Origin: Streptomyces sp. ICBB 8177
Lineage (GTDB): Bacteria; Actinomycetota; Actinomycetes; Streptomycetales; Streptomycetaceae
Length of the DNA stretch: 64,000 nucleotides
Assembly: GCF_003144095.1 (NCBI RefSeq)
Contig: NZ_NSKH01000018.1
Coordinates: 2,537,202-2,601,201 of the forward strand
Direction: 5' to 3'
The position numbers and the translations under genes are program-made. Every line of letters starts with the position of its first letter. Positions within the stretch are counted from its first letter, which is position 1. Shown in pieces: positions 3,514 through 10,834 of this stretch. Under the pieces are notes generated by a model, which saw nothing but the letters and a program-made list of their open reading frames with translations, did not search any database and was not told the DNA's origin.

Positions 3514-4152
3514 TCACTTCAGTCGCGCCAGCAGCGCGTGCTCCACCAGCGAGATCAGCGTGGACTTCGCTTCGCCGCGGTTCCTGGCGTCGGTGGTCAT
3601 GATCGGGGTCTCGGGTCCGATCTGGAGCGCTTCGCGTACCTCGTCGGGGGTGTAGGGCTGGTGGCCGTCGAAGCCGTTGAGGGCGATGACGAAGGGGAGG
3701 CCGGAGTTCTCGAAGTAGTCGACGGCGGGGAAGCAGTCGGCGAGGCGGCGGGTGTCGACGAGGACGACGGCGCCGATGGCGCCGCGTACCAGGTCGTCCC
3801 ACATGAACCAGAAGCGGTCCTGTCCGGGGGTGCCGAACAGGTAGAGGATCAGGTCCTCGTCCAGCGTGATGCGGCCGAAGTCCATCGCCACCGTGGTGGT
3901 CGTCTTGTCGGCGACCTTGCTCAGGTCGTCGATCCCGGCCGACGCCGAGGTCATCACGGCCTCGGTGCGCAGCGGGTTGATCTCGGAGACGGCACCGACG
4001 AACGTGGTCTTGCCCACGCCGAAGCCGCCCGCCACCACGATCTTCGCGGAGGTGGTCGAGCGGGCGGGCTCCTGCCCGTAGGCCTGCCCCTGCGGCGCGA
4101 AGCCCGTGTACGGGTCGGCTGCCGCCTGCGGCCTAGAGCTTCCGAAGTCCAC
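3514..4152 (-). CDS. cvnD: Conservon small GTP/ATP-binding protein (CvnD-type)
   Basis: The product is 212 residues, the usual size for conservon GTPases. After about 35 disordered residues come the P-loop GGFGVGKTT (about 42-50), a switch II-like LFGTPGQDRF, and ALNGFDG in place of the usual NKxD base-recognition motif. Conservon GTPases are described as membrane-associated switches acting with the roadblock and DUF742 partners in a complex resembling eukaryotic GPCR signalling. The start overlaps the end of the DUF742 gene by 20 bp, indicating translational coupling as the last gene of the operon. A strong terminator follows. Confidence 0.9.
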   Translation of the reverse strand: MDFGSSRPQAAADPYTGFAPQGQAYGQEPARSTTSAKIVVAGGFGVGKTTFVGAVSEINPLRTEAVMTSASAGIDDLSKVADKTTTTVAMDFGRITLDEDLILYLFGTPGQDRFWFMWDDLVRGAIGAVVLVDTRRLADCFPAVDYFENSGLPFVIALNGFDGHQPYTPDEVREALQIGPETPIMTTDARNRGEAKSTLISLVEHALLARLK

Positions 4153-4540
4153 TGAGCACCCTCTCCAGCAAAGTCACGTCCGGCTGCCCGCCGGCCTCAC
4201 CGTTGCCCGGCTGGTGGATGGCGACCATGCCCGCTTCGGCGAGGTCGGCCACCAGGATCCGGGCCACGCCCAGCGGAATGGCCAGCAGCGCGGAGATCTC
4301 CGCCACCGACTTGATCTCCCGGCACAGGTGGCAGATCCGCTGGTGCTCCGGGAGCAGGGCACCGTAGCTCGACGGATCCGCCGTGGTACTGACCAGGGCC
4401 TCGATGGCGAGTTGATATCTGGGTCTGGTGCGACCACCGGTCATGGCGTACGGCCGCACCAGCGGCTGGTCGCCTTCGCCTCCGTACGGCGCGTGGTGGG
4501 CGGCACCGTACGGGCCGGGTGAGGCGGATGGCGGAGTCAT
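4133..4540 (-). CDS. cvnC: DUF742 conservon protein (CvnC-type)
   Basis: The product is 135 residues. A Gly/Pro/Tyr-rich leader of about 28 residues precedes the DUF742 core, which opens with LVRPYAMTGGRTRP and contains HQRICHLCREIKSVAEIS. The centre and C-terminus look like a winged-helix fold (AEISALLAIPLGVARILVADL). Family knowledge: DUF742 proteins are the third component of actinobacterial conservons. Their biochemical role is unsettled, though they are thought to bridge kinase, roadblock protein and GTPase. The gene lies 116 nt after the roadblock gene and overlaps the GTPase gene, consistent with fixed conservon order. The family call is firm and the molecular function is not. Confidence 0.9.
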   Translation of the reverse strand: MTPPSASPGPYGAAHHAPYGGEGDQPLVRPYAMTGGRTRPRYQLAIEALVSTTADPSSYGALLPEHQRICHLCREIKSVAEISALLAIPLGVARILVADLAEAGMVAIHQPGNGEAGGQPDVTLLERVLSGLRKL

Positions 4541-4656: not shown

Positions 4657-5082
4657 TCAGCCGCCGAGCAGGGTGCCCTGAAGCTCGGCGCGAAGGTCGG
4701 GGGTCAGGACGGTTCCCGCGCGGTCGACGAGGAGGGCCATTTCGTAGCCGACGAGGCCGATGTCGCACTCGGGGTGGGCGAGTACGGCGAGGGAGGAGCC
4801 GTCGGAGACGGACATGATGAACATGAAGCCGCGTTCCATCTCCACGACGGTCTGGTTGACGTTGCCGCCCTCGAAGATACGGGAGGCTCCCGCCGTCAGC
4901 GAGGTCAACCCCGAGGCGACGGCGGCCAGTTGGTCCGCGCGGTCACGGGGGAAACCGTCCGACATGGCCAGCAGGAGGCCATCGGCGGAGACGACCACCG
5001 TATGGGACACACCCGGGGTGTTGTCCACGAAGTTGGTGATCAACCAGTTCAGATTCTGTGCCGCCTGGCTCATCGGACTCAA
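4657..5082 (-). CDS. cvnB: Roadblock/LC7 domain protein (CvnB-type)
   Basis: The product is 138-141 residues, spanned entirely by one roadblock/LC7 domain (LNWLITNFVDNTPGVSHTVV; DGLLLAMSDG; TVLTPDLRAELQG). Family knowledge: such proteins act as scaffolds or regulators of the partner GTPase. Two starts compete. TTG at 5082 abuts the kinase stop codon and has AGGAG 6 nt upstream. ATG at 5073 (MSQAAQ) has only a weak GAG. I give the longer form because of its ribosome binding site. It is translated directly after the kinase, so coupled expression is likely. Sequence, length and position all fit the second conservon component. Confidence 0.92.
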   Translation of the reverse strand: MSPMSQAAQNLNWLITNFVDNTPGVSHTVVVSADGLLLAMSDGFPRDRADQLAAVASGLTSLTAGASRIFEGGNVNQTVVEMERGFMFIMSVSDGSSLAVLAHPECDIGLVGYEMALLVDRAGTVLTPDLRAELQGTLLGG

Positions 5083-8000
5083 CTAACGCTCCTGCTGGTG
5101 AGTGGTGCCGAAACCGCGGCCGTCCGTCTGCTGGGCGCCGGCGCTCCGGCCCTGCTGGATACCGCGGCGGAGGTTGGTCAGCCGGCCGCGCACGTCGTCG
5201 GGGGCGCGCGAGACCTGGGGACCGGTGTGCTCGCTCTGCTGGGCCGTGCCGGGGACGAGGTTCGCCCGCGGCACCCGGCGCGGCAGACCTGACGGGGTCA
5301 CGCCGCCCGCGGCCGGTTCACGGACCTGCTCGGCGCGGCGCCACCGCTCGTCGTTGGGGGAGACGCGCCACTCGCCGGTGTCGCCGGTGTCGCCGGGGCC
5401 GCGCTGCGGGGCGGACGCCTGCGGGTCCTGGTCACCGGCCGAACGCGCCGGGCCGCGCGGGGGCTCCGGCCGCTGCGGCGGGCCGGACTGCGCCGGTCCG
5501 GGCCGCGTCGACCCCGTATGGGGCGTCCCGGGCTGCGGCGGAGCGGACTGCTGCGGGGAGCGCTGCGGCAGCGGGGGCTGCGCGGCGGGCTGCCGCTGCT
5601 CACGGCGGGCCGGGGCCTGCGGGCCGCCGAAGGCCTGCGCGTCGTTGCCGGCCGGGCCGTCCGCGTAGCCGGTCGGCGCGGTGCGCTCGGCCTGCTGACG
5701 GAACCAGTCCGACTCCAGCGACTCGAAGATCGGCGAGCGGCCGTCACCCGGGGAGGTGGCGGGCGGCAGCGCCATCGGCTCGGCGGCGGGCGGCAGTTGG
5801 GGCTCGGGCCGCCGGCCCGCTGGGCGCCCCGGAGCCTGCTGCGGCTGCGGCACCTGCGGCGGTCGGGGGCCCTGCGGGGGCTGCTGCTGCGGCTGCCGGT
5901 CCCGAGGCGGGCGGCCCTGCGCCGTCTCGCCCGCGCCGATCGCCGGGAACTGCGCGGTCGAGGCCGCGTCCTGGTCGCCGAGCGAGCCGATCGCCGGGAA
6001 CTGGGCCGTGGACGAGGCGTCGTCGTAGGCCGGGGCGGGACGGCGCTCCTCGCGCGGGCGCCGCGGCGGCAGGCCCTGCTGCGGGCCGCCGGTACGCGGG
6101 CCCCGGGGACCCTGCGGGTTCTGGTTGCCCGGCGCCTGCGGGTTGTTGCGGGCCGGGGGCTGCTGGGGCCCGCGGCGCGGCGGCGTCTGGCGGCCGCGGG
6201 GGCCGAAGACGTCGGAGCCGGAGCCCGCGTGCTGCGGCGCGCGGAACTCACCGGTCGGCGCGTCCCCGACGAAGCCCGCCGAGGCCGGGCCGGCGCCCTG
6301 CGGCGCGTTCGGGGTCTGCGGGGCGTTCGGGCCTTGGGGGAGCGGGAACTCGCCGGTGGAGCCGGGGCCGAAGACGCCGCCGCCGAAGCCGTCGAATCCG
6401 CCGTCCTGGCGCGGCGCGTCCTGCCGCGGCTGCTGGGGCTGCCGGGGCGCGTGGAACTCCGCGGTCGTCGCGTTGTCGCGTCCGGTGCCGTGGTAGTCGG
6501 GGCGCTCGTAGCCCTCGGGGGCGTCCATGCCGAGGACGTCGTCGTGGCCGCGCGGGACGTCCGCGCCCGCCCGGTCGTCCGCCTGTGCCCAGCTCGGCGC
6601 GGGACGCTCGCTCGCCGCCGGCTGCGGCGCGCGCGGCGCGGTGTTCGGGCCCTGCCGGGTGGGCAGGCCCGCACCGCGCTGCTGCTGCGGACCGGGGACC
6701 GGGGCGCCGAAGGCGTTGGTGCCGCCGCCCGCGGCGGGAGCACCCGGGGCGCCCGGCCCGTTGCCCGGGCCGGAGTCGTGGTTGCCGGTGAGCGCCGGAC
6801 GCTGGGCGCCGCCGGGCACCTGGCCGCGCTGCGCGGCGCGGCCGATGGGCTGGCCCACCCCGCTGCCGGAACCGCCGGCGGCCGGGGCGCGCTTGGCCTG
6901 CGCCTGTCCCTGACCCTGCTGGCCGGGCGCGGACTTGGCGCCGCCCTGCGTGAGGTCGACCGGCAGCATGACCAGCGCGGTGGTGCCGCCGGAGTCCGAC
7001 GGGCGCAGCTGGATGCGGATGCCGTGCCGCAGGGACAGGCGGCCGACCACGAACAGGCCCATGCGGCGGGAGACGGAGACGTCCACCGTCGGCGGGTTGG
7101 CCAGCCGCTCGTTGATGTCGGACAGGTCCTCCGGCGACAGGCCGATGCCGGTGTCGTGGATCTCGACCAGCACGCGGCCGTCGGGCAGCGCGTGACCGGT
7201 GACCCGCACCTTCGTCTGCGGCGAGGAGAACGAGGTGGCGTTCTCCAGCAGCTCGGCGAGCAGGTGGACGAGGTCGTTGACGACGCGTCCTGCGACCTCG
7301 GTCGGCGGGACCGCGGTCAGCTCGATGCGTTCGTACTGCTCCACCTCGGAGGCCGCGGCGCGCAGCACGTCGACCAGCGGGACCGGGCGGGTCCAGCGGC
7401 GGCCCGGTTCCTCGCCCGCGAGGACGAGCAGGTTCTCACCGTTGCGGCGCATGCGGGTCGCGAGGTGGTCGAGCTTGAAGAGGTTGGACAGCTGGTCGGG
7501 GTCGGCCTCGCGGGACTCCAGCTCGGAGATGAGCGACAGCTGACGCTGGATCAGGCCCTGGCTGCGGCGCGAGAGGTTGGTGAACATCGCGTTGACGTTC
7601 CCTCGCAGCAGCGCCTGCTCGGCGGCGAGGCGGACCGCCTCGCGGTGCACGTCGTCGAACGCGCGGGCCACCCGGCCGATCTCGTCGCGGGTGTTGATGC
7701 CGATTTCCTCGACCGAGGTGTCGACGTCCTGCGGGTCGGACTCCGACAGCTGCTTGACCAGGTCCGGCAGGCGCTTCTGCGAGACCTCCTGCGCGGTGTC
7801 CTGAAGACGCCGCAGCGAGCGGATCATCGAGCGGGCCACCACGAACGCGCCGACCAGCGACACACCGAGGACCAGCAGGATCAGCGCACCGGACAGCAGG
7901 GCCTCCTGCTGCGCCGAGGTGCGCAGGGTCAGCGCCTGCTGCGACATCTGGTCGAGGAGTTCGGCCTCGATGCGGGACATCTCCTGCATCTTGGTGTCGT

Positions 8001-9174
8001 CCTCGTCGTACCAGTCGAGGTAGGACTTGGGCTGCTGGGTGATGCCGTCCGGGGTCTGCAGGACGCGTTCACGGTACTGGTCGGCCTGGGTGATGACGGT
8101 GTTGCCGCCGTCGAGGGCCTTCATCAGGTCCGCCGAGCCGTTGCCGTACGTCTCGATGAACCGCTTGATCTCCGAGTCCTCGCTGTCCGAGGCGCTCTGC
8201 GCGTAGAGCCGGTCGGAGGTGGACAGCTGGGGTCCCGAGGGGTTGGCGAGCGCGGCGCTGATCACCGCGCGCTGTATGGACTCGTACTCCTTGGCGGAGG
8301 TGAAGGCCGCGAGCGCGCGGGTGCTGCGGATCATGTCCGAGTTGCTGGTCGCCTGCGCCATGTCCTGGGAGAGCGACAGCAGCGAGGTGATCAGCTGGTC
8401 GTAGCCGGAGACCGTCTGCGAGATGTACTGCGTGTGGTTGTACGCGTTGTCACGGATCTGCTTGAGGGTCTGCAGCTGACGCGTGATGTCGATGACGGTG
8501 CTGCGGACGCCGACCAGCGACGGGTCGTTGCTGTTGATGTTGTCGGTGGCCTTCTGGAAGGCCGTGACCTCTCGGTCGGTCTCCTCGCGGGAGGCGACCA
8601 CCGAGTCGTCCGTGACGTGGCCGGAGGTGATCGGGCCCGCGGAGGCGTCGCGTTCGTCCTGGAGGGCGTCGGCGAGCTTGGTCGCGCTGCCGGTCATCTC
8701 GGTCAGCAGCTTCATGTGGTCCAGCTGGCTGACGTTCTCCAGCGAGCTCTGGATACGCAGCGCGCCCAGCGTGGTGGCCGCGACGACGGGCAGCGCCAGC
8801 AGCGAGACCAGACGGGTGCGGATGCTCCAGTTGCGCATCGCCAGCCGGGACGAGGCGTGCTTGCCCTGTTCCTTGCCGGTGACGGGTGGTTCGACGTCGC
8901 CGATGGCTGCGCCCTTGGCGGACGGGTCCTTGAGGCTCTTGGCACCCTTGCCGGACTTGCCGCCCTTGGCGTCGGCCGGGCCGGACGGCTTGGCGGCGCG
9001 TGGCGCGGCGGGACCGCCGTCCGCGGGCGCACCGGCCCTGGCGGCCTGCTGACCGGCCGGGGCGGAGTGCCCCGCGTCGTCGGCGGGGTTCCGCGGCTCG
9101 GGGCCACGGTCGGCTCCGCCGCGCGGCTCCGGGTCTCCCGCGGCGCCGCCATCCCTCTTGAAACGTCCCTGCAC
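5083..9174 (-). CDS. cvnA: Conservon sensor histidine kinase with NIT domain (CvnA-type)
   Basis: The product is 1363 residues with a GTG start. Order: a basic, Ala/Pro/Gly-rich N-terminus (1-120); membrane helix 122-142; an extracytoplasmic NIT-type sensing domain (about 150-420); membrane helix 425-448; a HAMP-like linker; a helical region with LDHLATRMRRNGENLL; and a HATPase with N-box LAELLENATSFS (about 635), HDTGIGL and MGLFVVGRL (about 705). About 600 residues of Pro/Gln/Gly-rich disordered tail follow. The final 60 residues form a conserved module (GVTPSGLPRRVPRANLVPG, then SRAPDDVRGRLTNLRRG) shared with the kinase at 1-3180. It heads the four-gene conservon. Position and content match what I recall as cvn1 of S. 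coelicolor. The signal is unknown. Confidence 0.93.
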   Translation of the reverse strand: MQGRFKRDGGAAGDPEPRGGADRGPEPRNPADDAGHSAPAGQQAARAGAPADGGPAAPRAAKPSGPADAKGGKSGKGAKSLKDPSAKGAAIGDVEPPVTGKEQGKHASSRLAMRNWSIRTRLVSLLALPVVAATTLGALRIQSSLENVSQLDHMKLLTEMTGSATKLADALQDERDASAGPITSGHVTDDSVVASREETDREVTAFQKATDNINSNDPSLVGVRSTVIDITRQLQTLKQIRDNAYNHTQYISQTVSGYDQLITSLLSLSQDMAQATSNSDMIRSTRALAAFTSAKEYESIQRAVISAALANPSGPQLSTSDRLYAQSASDSEDSEIKRFIETYGNGSADLMKALDGGNTVITQADQYRERVLQTPDGITQQPKSYLDWYDEDDTKMQEMSRIEAELLDQMSQQALTLRTSAQQEALLSGALILLVLGVSLVGAFVVARSMIRSLRRLQDTAQEVSQKRLPDLVKQLSESDPQDVDTSVEEIGINTRDEIGRVARAFDDVHREAVRLAAEQALLRGNVNAMFTNLSRRSQGLIQRQLSLISELESREADPDQLSNLFKLDHLATRMRRNGENLLVLAGEEPGRRWTRPVPLVDVLRAAASEVEQYERIELTAVPPTEVAGRVVNDLVHLLAELLENATSFSSPQTKVRVTGHALPDGRVLVEIHDTGIGLSPEDLSDINERLANPPTVDVSVSRRMGLFVVGRLSLRHGIRIQLRPSDSGGTTALVMLPVDLTQGGAKSAPGQQGQGQAQAKRAPAAGGSGSGVGQPIGRAAQRGQVPGGAQRPALTGNHDSGPGNGPGAPGAPAAGGGTNAFGAPVPGPQQQRGAGLPTRQGPNTAPRAPQPAASERPAPSWAQADDRAGADVPRGHDDVLGMDAPEGYERPDYHGTGRDNATTAEFHAPRQPQQPRQDAPRQDGGFDGFGGGVFGPGSTGEFPLPQGPNAPQTPNAPQGAGPASAGFVGDAPTGEFRAPQHAGSGSDVFGPRGRQTPPRRGPQQPPARNNPQAPGNQNPQGPRGPRTGGPQQGLPPRRPREERRPAPAYDDASSTAQFPAIGSLGDQDAASTAQFPAIGAGETAQGRPPRDRQPQQQPPQGPRPPQVPQPQQAPGRPAGRRPEPQLPPAAEPMALPPATSPGDGRSPIFESLESDWFRQQAERTAPTGYADGPAGNDAQAFGGPQAPARREQRQPAAQPPLPQRSPQQSAPPQPGTPHTGSTRPGPAQSGPPQRPEPPRGPARSAGDQDPQASAPQRGPGDTGDTGEWRVSPNDERWRRAEQVREPAAGGVTPSGLPRRVPRANLVPGTAQQSEHTGPQVSRAPDDVRGRLTNLRRGIQQGRSAGAQQTDGRGFGTTHQQER

Positions 9175-9739
9175 TAGCGTCGCAACCTCTGGACCAGGCG
9201 TCCCCCGCGCGGGCGGCGGACGGTGTCGAGTCTGTGGGGGCTCGCGCGGTCCCCCGGGGGGTAACGGTCGACCGGCGGATGCCCGAGCACCGCCGCTCGA
9301 CGCGTCTGCGCGCCCCCTGCGTGCCGGTCTTCAGTCGCGGCGGTCCGTGGAATTCCAGCACAGGCGCGGAAGTCCAACAAGGTCCGTAGACCAGCCTGTG
9401 ACAAGGGTTACGCAGTGCTGTTGCCGAATCACCGCATGTCGAGGAGGAGGGCGCCGATATCGGACTTATCCAGGCGAGCCCGGTGCGGGCTCCGGCTGTC
9501 CCGGTCGCGGCGTTCGGCGGCGAAACGCGGCAGTGGGTCCCCAATGTCCCATTCTCGTACGGAGGTTGGCAGGGGGAATTTGTCGCGAATCTGGGGGTGT
9601 TCGTGAGCAATATCACAGGGTGATCGTTGTCTGCGTCACGGAAACCGCCCGATGCCGCCGCCTAGCCTGATCCTTTGCAGAAGCCGAGTCGGCGACTGCG
9701 GAAGCCAAAGCTGACAACACCACACGAGGCCGGCACACG
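9175..9739. other. Divergent 565-bp spacer between cvnA and a small plus-strand gene
   Basis: I see no convincing coding sequence here. Contents: the kinase-upstream 12-mer GTGCTGGAATTC on the minus strand (9361-9350); a perfect inverted repeat ATCAC-AGG-GTGAT at 9612-9624; and a possible -10 (TAGCCT, about 9662) ahead of the 64-residue gene. The inverted repeat lies about 115 nt before that gene's start and could be an operator. The binding protein is unknown. Confidence 0.4.
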
Positions 9740-9934
9740 ATGAAGACGACCCTGCTGACGCGTCCCATAGCCAACCCCCGCCGGACCACCCTCGCGCACC
9801 TGAAGGACGCCGACGAGCGTCCGCAGGCCGCGGCGGCCGTGGCGGACGGCGAGCGCACCGAGCGCCCGGTGGAACTGCCCAAGCAGACCGCCAACCCGCG
9901 CCGCACCGTCCTGGACAAGCTGCCCGCCGCCTGA
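9740..9934 (+). CDS. Small protein with duplicated ANPRRTxLxxL motif
   Basis: The product is 64 residues, strongly charged, with no membrane segment, signal peptide or cysteine. ANPRRTTLAHL (11-21) and ANPRRTVLDKL (51-61) are near-identical modules separated by a variable Ala/Glu/Arg linker, so the protein looks like two short linear motifs on a flexible spacer. Start is ATG, with CGAGG about 10 nt upstream and a strong hairpin terminator right after the stop, so it is probably its own transcription unit. It is divergent from the conservon. I vaguely recall similar small proteins in other streptomycetes but know no function. A role as a docking peptide for a neighbouring protein is speculation. 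Confidence 0.65.
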   Translation: MKTTLLTRPIANPRRTTLAHLKDADERPQAAAAVADGERTERPVELPKQTANPRRTVLDKLPAA

Positions 9935-9942
9935 GGCACCCC

Positions 9943-9981
9943 GGGCCCGGCCCCCCGACCGAGACGTCCGGGGCCGGGCCC
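9943..9981 (+). terminator. Terminator of the 64-residue gene
   Basis: A perfect 12-bp GC stem (9943-9954 with 9970-9981) with a 15-nt loop begins 8 nt after the stop codon. No U-run follows, as is usual in this genus. Confidence 0.8.
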
Positions 9982-10042
9982 ACCTGCGCGATAGCCTGGA
10001 GCGTCAGTCTCCAGCCACCGCAGTGAGGGGCAGCAGCTTCCC

Positions 10043-10834
10043 GTGCGCATCGCCAGGTTCTCCATCGACGGCAATGTCGCCTTCGGCGTGGTCGAGGGCG
10101 AAGGGACCGGTCCCGACGGTCTCGTCCTCGACATCATCAAGGGCATCCCGTTCGCCGAGTTCGAACGCTCCGGCACCAAGGTCCCGCTGGACAAGGTGCG
10201 GCTGCTGCCGCCGGTGCTGCCCAGCAAGGTCGTGGCGATCGGCCGCAACTACGCGGAGCACGCCGCCGAACTCGGCCACGAGGTCCCCGACGCGCCGTTC
10301 GCCTTCTTCAAGCCCTCGACCTCGGTCGTCGGCCCCGGCGACGCGATCCCGTACCCCTCGTTCACCCGGGAGCTGCACCACGAGGCGGAACTCGCGGTGG
10401 TCATCGGCCGGATGTGCCGCGAGGTGCCGCGCGAGCGGGCCCACGAGGTGATCCTCGGCTACACCTGCGCCAACGACCTCACCGCGCGCGACGTCCAGCG
10501 CGCCGAGAAGCAGTGGGCCCGCGCCAAGGGGTTCGACGGCGCCTGCCCCCTCGGCCCCTGGGTGGAGACCGGCATCGACCTCGCGGCCGCCGGCGACCTG
10601 GCGATCACCTGCGAGGTCAACGGCGAGCTGCGGCAGGCAGGCCGGACCGGCCAGATGATCCACGGCATCGCCGACCTGATCGTCAACGTCACCGAGGCCA
10701 TGACCCTGCTGCCCGGCGACGTCATCCTCACCGGCACCCCGGCCGGGGTCGGCCCGCTCGACCCCGGCGACGAGGTCGCCGTCTCCATCGAAGGCATCGG
10801 CACTCTCACCAACAAGGTGATCAAGCGTGGCTAG
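10043..10834 (+). CDS. Fumarylacetoacetate hydrolase-family protein
   Basis: The product is 263 residues with a GTG start. An N-terminal lid-like domain precedes the FAH catalytic fold: [14 protein letters not shown] (about 68), the acidic metal-binding cluster [25 protein letters not shown]-like [13 protein letters not shown], and [10 protein letters not shown] near the C-terminus. FAH-fold enzymes cleave or decarboxylate beta-diketo acids or acylpyruvates using Mg2+. The sequence cannot separate acylpyruvase, oxaloacetate decarboxylase and catabolic hydratase-like activities. The last 8 bp overlap the start of gltX, so the two genes are co-transcribed and translationally coupled. This linkage to a tRNA synthetase probably reflects operon history, not a shared pathway. 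Confidence 0.9.

Follow-up and report, generated by a model that had tools for sequence, protein, structure and literature searches.

The window, that is, the whole 64,000-nt stretch of Streptomyces sp. ICBB 8177 DNA under analysis, contains a small gene that lies divergently beside the conservon cvn1 and is followed by a FAH-family hydrolase gene, with a further gene downstream on the same strand which we take to be gltX. The features of the locus, in window coordinates, are the following.

3514..4152, minus strand: cvnD1, which matches PF03029 (ATP_bind_1) and is taken as the conservon GTPase from its position
4133..4540, minus strand: cvnC1 (DUF742, by Pfam)
4657..5082, minus strand: cvnB1 (Roadblock/LC7, by Pfam)
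5083..9174, minus strand: cvnA1, NIT-HAMP-HATPase sensor kinase-like (by Pfam), the divergent neighbour of the small gene
9603..9616, no strand assigned: GTGAGCAATATCAC, Crp/GlxR-type palindrome GTGA-N6-TCAC
9663..9668, plus strand: TAGCCT, which lies 46 bp past the palindrome and is presumed to be the -10 box of the small gene
9726..9729, plus strand: GAGG, presumed ribosome-binding site read from the sequence, 10 nt upstream of the ATG
9740..9934, plus strand: the small gene, a 64-aa ORF from ATG to TGA taken as the SCO5545 orthologue; its product carries two motifs of the TANPRRTxL type and has no confidently predicted fold
9767..9793, plus strand: motif 1, I-ANPRRTTL, codons 10-18
9794..9886, plus strand: inter-motif linker, variable and partly acidic
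9887..9913, plus strand: motif 2, T-ANPRRTVL, codons 50-58
9943..9981, plus strand: GC-rich, terminator-like hairpin just 3′ of the stop codon (folded for the window sequence)
10043..10834, plus strand: FAH-family hydrolase, the downstream neighbour, not strictly linked

The sequence-only reading of this DNA had proposed a 64-residue gene with a start, proper codon use and its own terminator. The coordinates were confirmed, and the GC content at the three codon positions (0.74/0.55/0.92) is as expected for coding sequence in such GC-rich DNA. A hairpin with a 12-bp stem is indeed found 3′ of the stop codon, but without a U-run; the folding energy of the region 9925-10000 is -43.8 kcal/mol (z -2.6). 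The encoded protein (MKTTLLTRPIANPRRTTLAHLKDADERPQAAAAVADGERTERPVELPKQTANPRRTVLDKLPAA) has a net charge of +4 and contains no cysteine, and its motif copies occupy residues 10-21 (IANPRRTTLAHL) and 50-61 (TANPRRTVLDKL). In line with the earlier statement that it carries no known domain, no fitting family was found: Pfam returned only a chance match to Herpes_UL42 (E 0.15, 12.4 bits against a cut-off of 27), NCBIfam and PHROGs returned nothing, and neither the protein nor profile A1 matched any PDB sequence. Among 21 diverse members of the family, DUF7344 alone came up in Pfam at E 0.01 or better; it was hit by one member (E 0.0043) and treated as chance. AlphaFold2 run with 29 sequences gave a pLDDT of 61 and a pTM of 0.15 with no secondary structure reported, a result that is consistent with a disordered protein and that would fit a shallow alignment as well. 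Two other candidate identities were rejected, namely a twin-arginine (Tat) signal, given that there is no hydrophobic segment and that the first arginine is replaceable, and the NPRR loop present in APC permeases, to which no homology was found.

The conservation of the protein was assessed on 118 distinct coding sequences, identical ones being merged; three loci (L128, L130 and L137) and seven BLAST-negative ones (L118-L122, L134 and L135) stand outside this set and were read separately. The A, N, P, second R, T and L of both motif copies are identical in 99-100% of the 118 sequences, as are codons 11-18 of motif 1 in 98-100%. The first R is the exception: it is R in 98% of the sequences in motif 1 and in 86% in motif 2, where it is otherwise mostly K, and the position also accepts Q and V, in contrast to N, P, T and L, which are nearly fixed. 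At motif codons whose residues stay invariant, third positions vary. Raw pN/pS values, which are uncorrected counts over all pairs and thus over pairs that are not independent, were 0.015 for motif 1, 0.20 for motif 2 (codons 51-58, free x position included), 0.61 for residues 2-10 and 0.94 for the linker (codons 22-30 and 38-45). The small gene is therefore under selection as a protein, and the two motifs are its conserved core; conserved motifs amid a diverging remainder are what one would look for in a bivalent motif ligand. That the motifs should be conserved among orthologues was one of the points on which the sequence-only reading had staked its proposal, and this one has held, as has its description of the linker as variable, since the length of the linker changes across relatives in addition to its sequence. 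The claim of two ANPRRTxLxxL copies needs trimming: the two copies are real, but the core that they share is the shorter (I/T)-A-N-P-(R/K)-R-T-x-L, the trailing xxL being conserved solely in motif 1 of the large clade. As to chance repetition, 110 of 200,000 shuffles of the protein contained any repeated 6-mer and 1,496 of 20,000 any repeated 4-mer, and conservation is stronger evidence for the motif pair than these statistics.

The loci read individually give the same picture at larger distances. In the most divergent genera (g2 and g5; L118-L121, L134, L135 and L159, compared by reading and not by a tree) the pattern TANP(R/K)RTx(L/V) occurs twice and little else is recognisable. The copy in L122 (5983-6150), from a genome that is 76% complete, has a damaged motif 1, with QPRRTTL soon after an upstream stop codon; its motif 2 ends in RRI, as does that of L124. 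Motif 2 of L129 has NVRR, and L130 ends in TVR instead of TVL. Two peculiarities of codon usage were also observed. Ile10 (codon 10, window 9767-9769) is encoded by ATA in 59 and by ATT in 17 of 101 Ile codons, as compared with 1.4% and 1.0% of 6,817 in neighbouring genes, and the most deviant of 28 control Ile sites had 2 non-ATC codons out of 30; this looks like a constraint at the nucleotide or translational level. Codons 3 and 4 (window 9746-9751) favour ACG, which accounts for 99 of 107 and 104 of 117 Thr codons, respectively, against 28% in neighbouring genes.

The gene is nearly universal in the family. At E 0.01 or better it was matched in 147 of 150 sampled genomes of this family, taken here as Streptomycetaceae, the loci behind weak matches (G004, G010, G018, G020, G028, G030, G037 and G073) being read individually. 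One of the three misses, G001, does have the gene on reading, whereas in G015 (98% complete) no small gene could be recognised on reading while cvn1 is kept. At least 148 of the 150 genomes thus carry it, a lower bound that leaves G137 (71% complete), the third miss, uncounted. A pattern scan of genome contigs confirmed at least 155 relatives, of which 80 were kept, and the genera named among the matches listed are Streptomyces, Streptantibioticus and Actinacidiphila, together with one record labelled 'Actinobacteria bacterium'. In a sample of the order, 104 of 104 Streptomycetaceae genomes matched and 1 of 15 from sister families (E 0.059); 394 genomes of the class gave 48 matches, 40 of them in Streptomycetaceae and the other 8 weak (E 2.8e-4 to 0.01); and 396 genomes of the phylum, searched with the broader profile A2, gave 17, of which 12 were in Streptomycetaceae and 5 weak (E 5.2e-4 to 0.004). 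The 8 class, 5 phylum and 1 sister-family matches were judged to be chance from their E-values and partial extent, their alignments being unread, so that no convincing relative was found outside Streptomycetaceae among the 394 class, 396 phylum and 15 sister-family genomes. The plasmid collection likewise gave no match to the small protein.

Nor was a paralogue found in the window's own genome, where the protein search returned only the gene itself below E 0.08. A DNA pattern for the motif matched that genome 19 times, against 13 for a reversed control pattern; 10 of the 19 matches were inspected as loci, two of these being the gene's own motifs, and nine were unread. The ANPRRTxL core is absent from all four open-frame NPRRT matches among the eight other loci read. 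That is, L138 has ANPRRTRG immediately behind a stop codon, which leaves it without a preceding start, L140 has NPRRT within an arginine-rich frame, and L142 and L147 have ENPRRTV and RNPRRTV, respectively, in hydrophobic sequence; all four were rejected as further motif carriers.

The position of the gene is also highly constant. A match to cvnA1 (E 0.01 or better) was present in 129 of 129 loci (L009-L137), the NIT domain of the window CvnA1 itself being matched at E 8.6e-43. Of 147 genomes, 146 have the small gene, by coordinates, directly beside cvnA1 and divergent from it, the gap to the search segment being 742-1055 bp; in the 147th (G028), reading of its locus L120 places the cvnA1 match on the other strand, with FAH following the small gene. 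The earlier observation that the gene lies divergently beside a conservon hence extends to all 147 genomes checked, and it displays the fixed linkage that would be expected of a conservon accessory. Against a strict dependence, G015 retains cvn1 and FAH in their usual order with no recognisable small gene, indicating that Cvn1 can do without the small protein. FAH, on the other side, went undetected in 10 of the 129 loci. At least 4 kb of downstream sequence is available for half of them, namely L017, L033, L063, L087 and L132, and the other five have shorter flanks from which FAH was possibly cut off. Since FAH is sometimes missing and cvnA1 always present, the strict link is to cvn1. In the five loci with long flanks, neither FAH nor gltX was seen in the 4-6 kb of sequence downstream. 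In G506 and G513, two of the three sister-family genomes inspected, the best cvnA1-like match lies far from FAH, and in the third, G505, it is on a different contig; the surroundings of FAH showed no NPRRT-type frame in any of the three. A TAGCCT element lies 3′ of the hairpin and before FAH, which suggests that FAH has its own promoter.

The region between the small gene and cvnA1 contains a candidate Crp-type site (GTGAGCAAACTCAC). All 123 upstream regions compared, namely that of the window and those of 122 loci in which BLAST detects the small gene and which extend at least 400 bases further upstream, contain a strict GTGA-N6-TCAC palindrome. Elsewhere the pattern is rare: in 1.17 Mb of these loci it occurs 167 times in total, about 123 of them at the small-gene promoter. 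The palindrome is also present in L122 and is absent from the most divergent genera (L118-L121, L134, L135 and L159); the promoter site is thus conserved in most of the family. Of the 125 sequences with a palindrome, which comprise these 123 together with L122 and L158, 101 have a TAGNNT element 45-47 bp past it, so that the spacing to the presumed -10 is nearly constant. The exact form GTGAGSAAAMTCAC was found once in G009 and once in G079, both at this locus, and twice in G014, once at this locus; the window's own genome has no exact copy and carries a variant instead. The palindrome fits the GlxR motif GTG(N)8CAC and agrees with the strong S. coelicolor Crp motif GTG(N)6GNCAC except at its G, both motifs being as quoted in the available text of PMC10033298. 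The conserved palindrome upstream of the small gene is new here.

In G015, where no small gene was recognised, the palindrome is kept (L158, 8689-8702), 139 bp before FAH, so that it may serve cvnA1 as well. The shared region is otherwise a busy one. According to the available text of the respective papers, the cvnA1 promoter or gene is bound by BldC and BldD (PMC5859096, PMC6428758), by WhiA/WhiB (PMC6428758, and a figure-list entry in PMC4850268) and by WblC (PMC7157823), and an EMSA table reports ScbR2 binding at the cvnA1 promoter (PMC4595836). A block at about window 9500-9560, covering the position of the published ScbR2 site, is highly conserved in 113 aligned upstream regions and diverged in the window.

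The gene itself is not new. In S. coelicolor it is annotated as SCO5545, listed in the ScbR2 table of PMC4595836 as a 'putative uncharacterized protein' and as the divergent partner of cvnA1 (SCO5544), the same arrangement as in the window. The published ScbR2 site matches the intergenic DNA with 2 mismatches in L029, L042 and L015 and with at most 4 in 21 of 129 loci (a count with no control), and it is this match that ties SCO5545 to the small gene; the two are taken as orthologous. In the same table SCO5545 has an expression value of 0.952, inside that paper's no-change range, and this hyphenated entry is its sole mention found in main texts. It is not named in the available text of PMC3224560, PMC3765725, PMC3123327 or PMC4255298. 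No published functional study of SCO5545 was found in the main-text literature, and supplementary tables may hold ChIP or RNA-seq values for it. The motif strings gave no match in the literature searched, which bears out the earlier remark that no description of the motif was known.

What could such a protein do? The reading that we favour, with rather less than even confidence, is that it is a disordered bivalent ligand which probably serves the Cvn1 G-protein system as an accessory factor. We infer that the small gene is translated into a short, intrinsically disordered peptide ligand in which each (I/T)ANP(R/K)RTxL motif would be one docking peptide and the freely evolving linker the tether between the two. 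The pair would then bind either one partner that is a dimer or oligomer or two partners together, and the sequence-only reading had similarly suggested that such a carrier could bridge or titrate a partner; two near-identical peptides on a flexible tether would suit a symmetric or paired receptor, and dimerisation is common among roadblock proteins and sensor kinases. The constant divergent position next to cvn1, with a regulatory region in common, makes a Cvn1 component the most likely partner, whether the kinase CvnA1, the roadblock protein CvnB1, CvnC1 or CvnD1. The small protein would assist or modulate that system, and a Crp-type transcription factor would drive its production. Several observations weigh against this assignment. 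G015 keeps cvn1 and the palindrome without the small gene; the lack of a detected paralogue in the window's genome means that the other conservons there seem to have no such gene; the most divergent genera have no palindrome; and the synteny could be held by the shared promoter region alone.

Comparison with known systems gives a partial precedent. Conservons do have accessory proteins: in the available text of PMC13343842, CvnF8 binds and stimulates CvnA8, and CvnE and CvnF accompany CvnA proteins that lack a sensor domain. The small gene resembles those of CvnE (a P450) and CvnF (a GAF protein) in being an accessory-like gene kept with a conservon, but it is divergent from the conservon and outside the operon, its product has no P450 or GAF match (Pfam and NCBIfam for the window protein, Pfam for the 21 diverse members), and the neighbouring CvnA1 has a sensor (NIT) domain, a difference that also counts against an accessory role. 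It was accordingly rejected as a CvnE or CvnF. The other likeness is to tandem short-linear-motif ligands, a general class with which the protein shares two conserved copies of a short peptide and the lack of a confident fold. In contrast to the known members, TANPRRTxL matches no motif known to us, and PDB sequences, which might have pointed to a receptor, gave no match.

A partner outside Cvn1, for instance a dimeric regulator or a chaperone, is nearly as likely as one within it. The protein would again be a bivalent linear-motif ligand, for which the two-motif evidence is identical, and its neighbourhood would reflect a shared regulated promoter region only. The targeting of the cvnA1 promoter region by BldC, BldD, WhiA/WhiB, ScbR2 and WblC, as described in the available text cited above, could alone hold the gene order, and the persistence of cvn1 in G015 points the same way; the linkage in 147 of 147 genomes checked, divergent genera without the palindrome included, is harder to reconcile with it. 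The three remaining possibilities are less likely than either kind of partner. Nucleic-acid binding, in which the N-P-R-R-T turn would sit in a DNA or RNA groove and be doubled for affinity, is improbable. Each copy does offer a basic RR pair, the window protein has a net charge of +4, and the geometry of an Asn-Pro turn resembles that of Ser/Thr-Pro, SPKK motifs forming DNA-groove turns that are similar in spirit. Nevertheless, the first R tolerates K, Q and V where N, P, T and L are near-invariant, which suggests specific rather than charge-based recognition, and the linker is often acidic.

A role of the sequence as RNA or DNA and not as protein, e.g. as a leader peptide, attenuator or regulatory codon, could account for the rare ATA at Ile10 (59 of 101 against 1.4% of 6,817) and the unusual preference for ACG at codons 3 and 4. 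We regard it as very improbable, given that the motif residues are invariant where third positions vary, that motif 2 lies near the C-terminus, that FAH seems to be served by a separate TAGCCT element beyond the hairpin and that Rfam had no match over window 9000-10100. Least probable of all is a RiPP-like precursor of a modified or processed peptide with two core repeats, in keeping with which short units are repeated in a small protein, but which would have neither cysteine nor a secretion-like segment, whose recurrent neighbours are cvn1, FAH and gltX, and for which no modifying enzyme was found among the seven window genes scanned (two of them without a family match).

Returning to the Cvn1-accessory reading, its most specific form is one that we consider possible but doubtful, judging from sequence and gene order: the small protein would be a new kind of accessory of a Ras-like G-protein system, acquired near the base of Streptomycetaceae and mostly placed under a dedicated Crp-type promoter, in which a disordered tether with two TANPRRTxL motifs clamps a dimeric Cvn1 component or joins two components. 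If this is true, TANPRRTxL would be a new bacterial docking motif whose receptor fold is still to be found. We regard the small protein as one of the linear-motif kind and possibly a conservon accessory. The inputs and outputs of conservons are poorly known, although in S. coelicolor both aerial growth and the production of antibiotics depend in part on CvnA1, according to the available text of a review (PMC9739842). A gene that nearly the whole family carries, that is locked to cvn1 and whose short motif is easy to mutate would give a direct handle on conservon signals and targets, and if the motif is a docking motif its receptor could be fished out with a peptide of about 10 residues.
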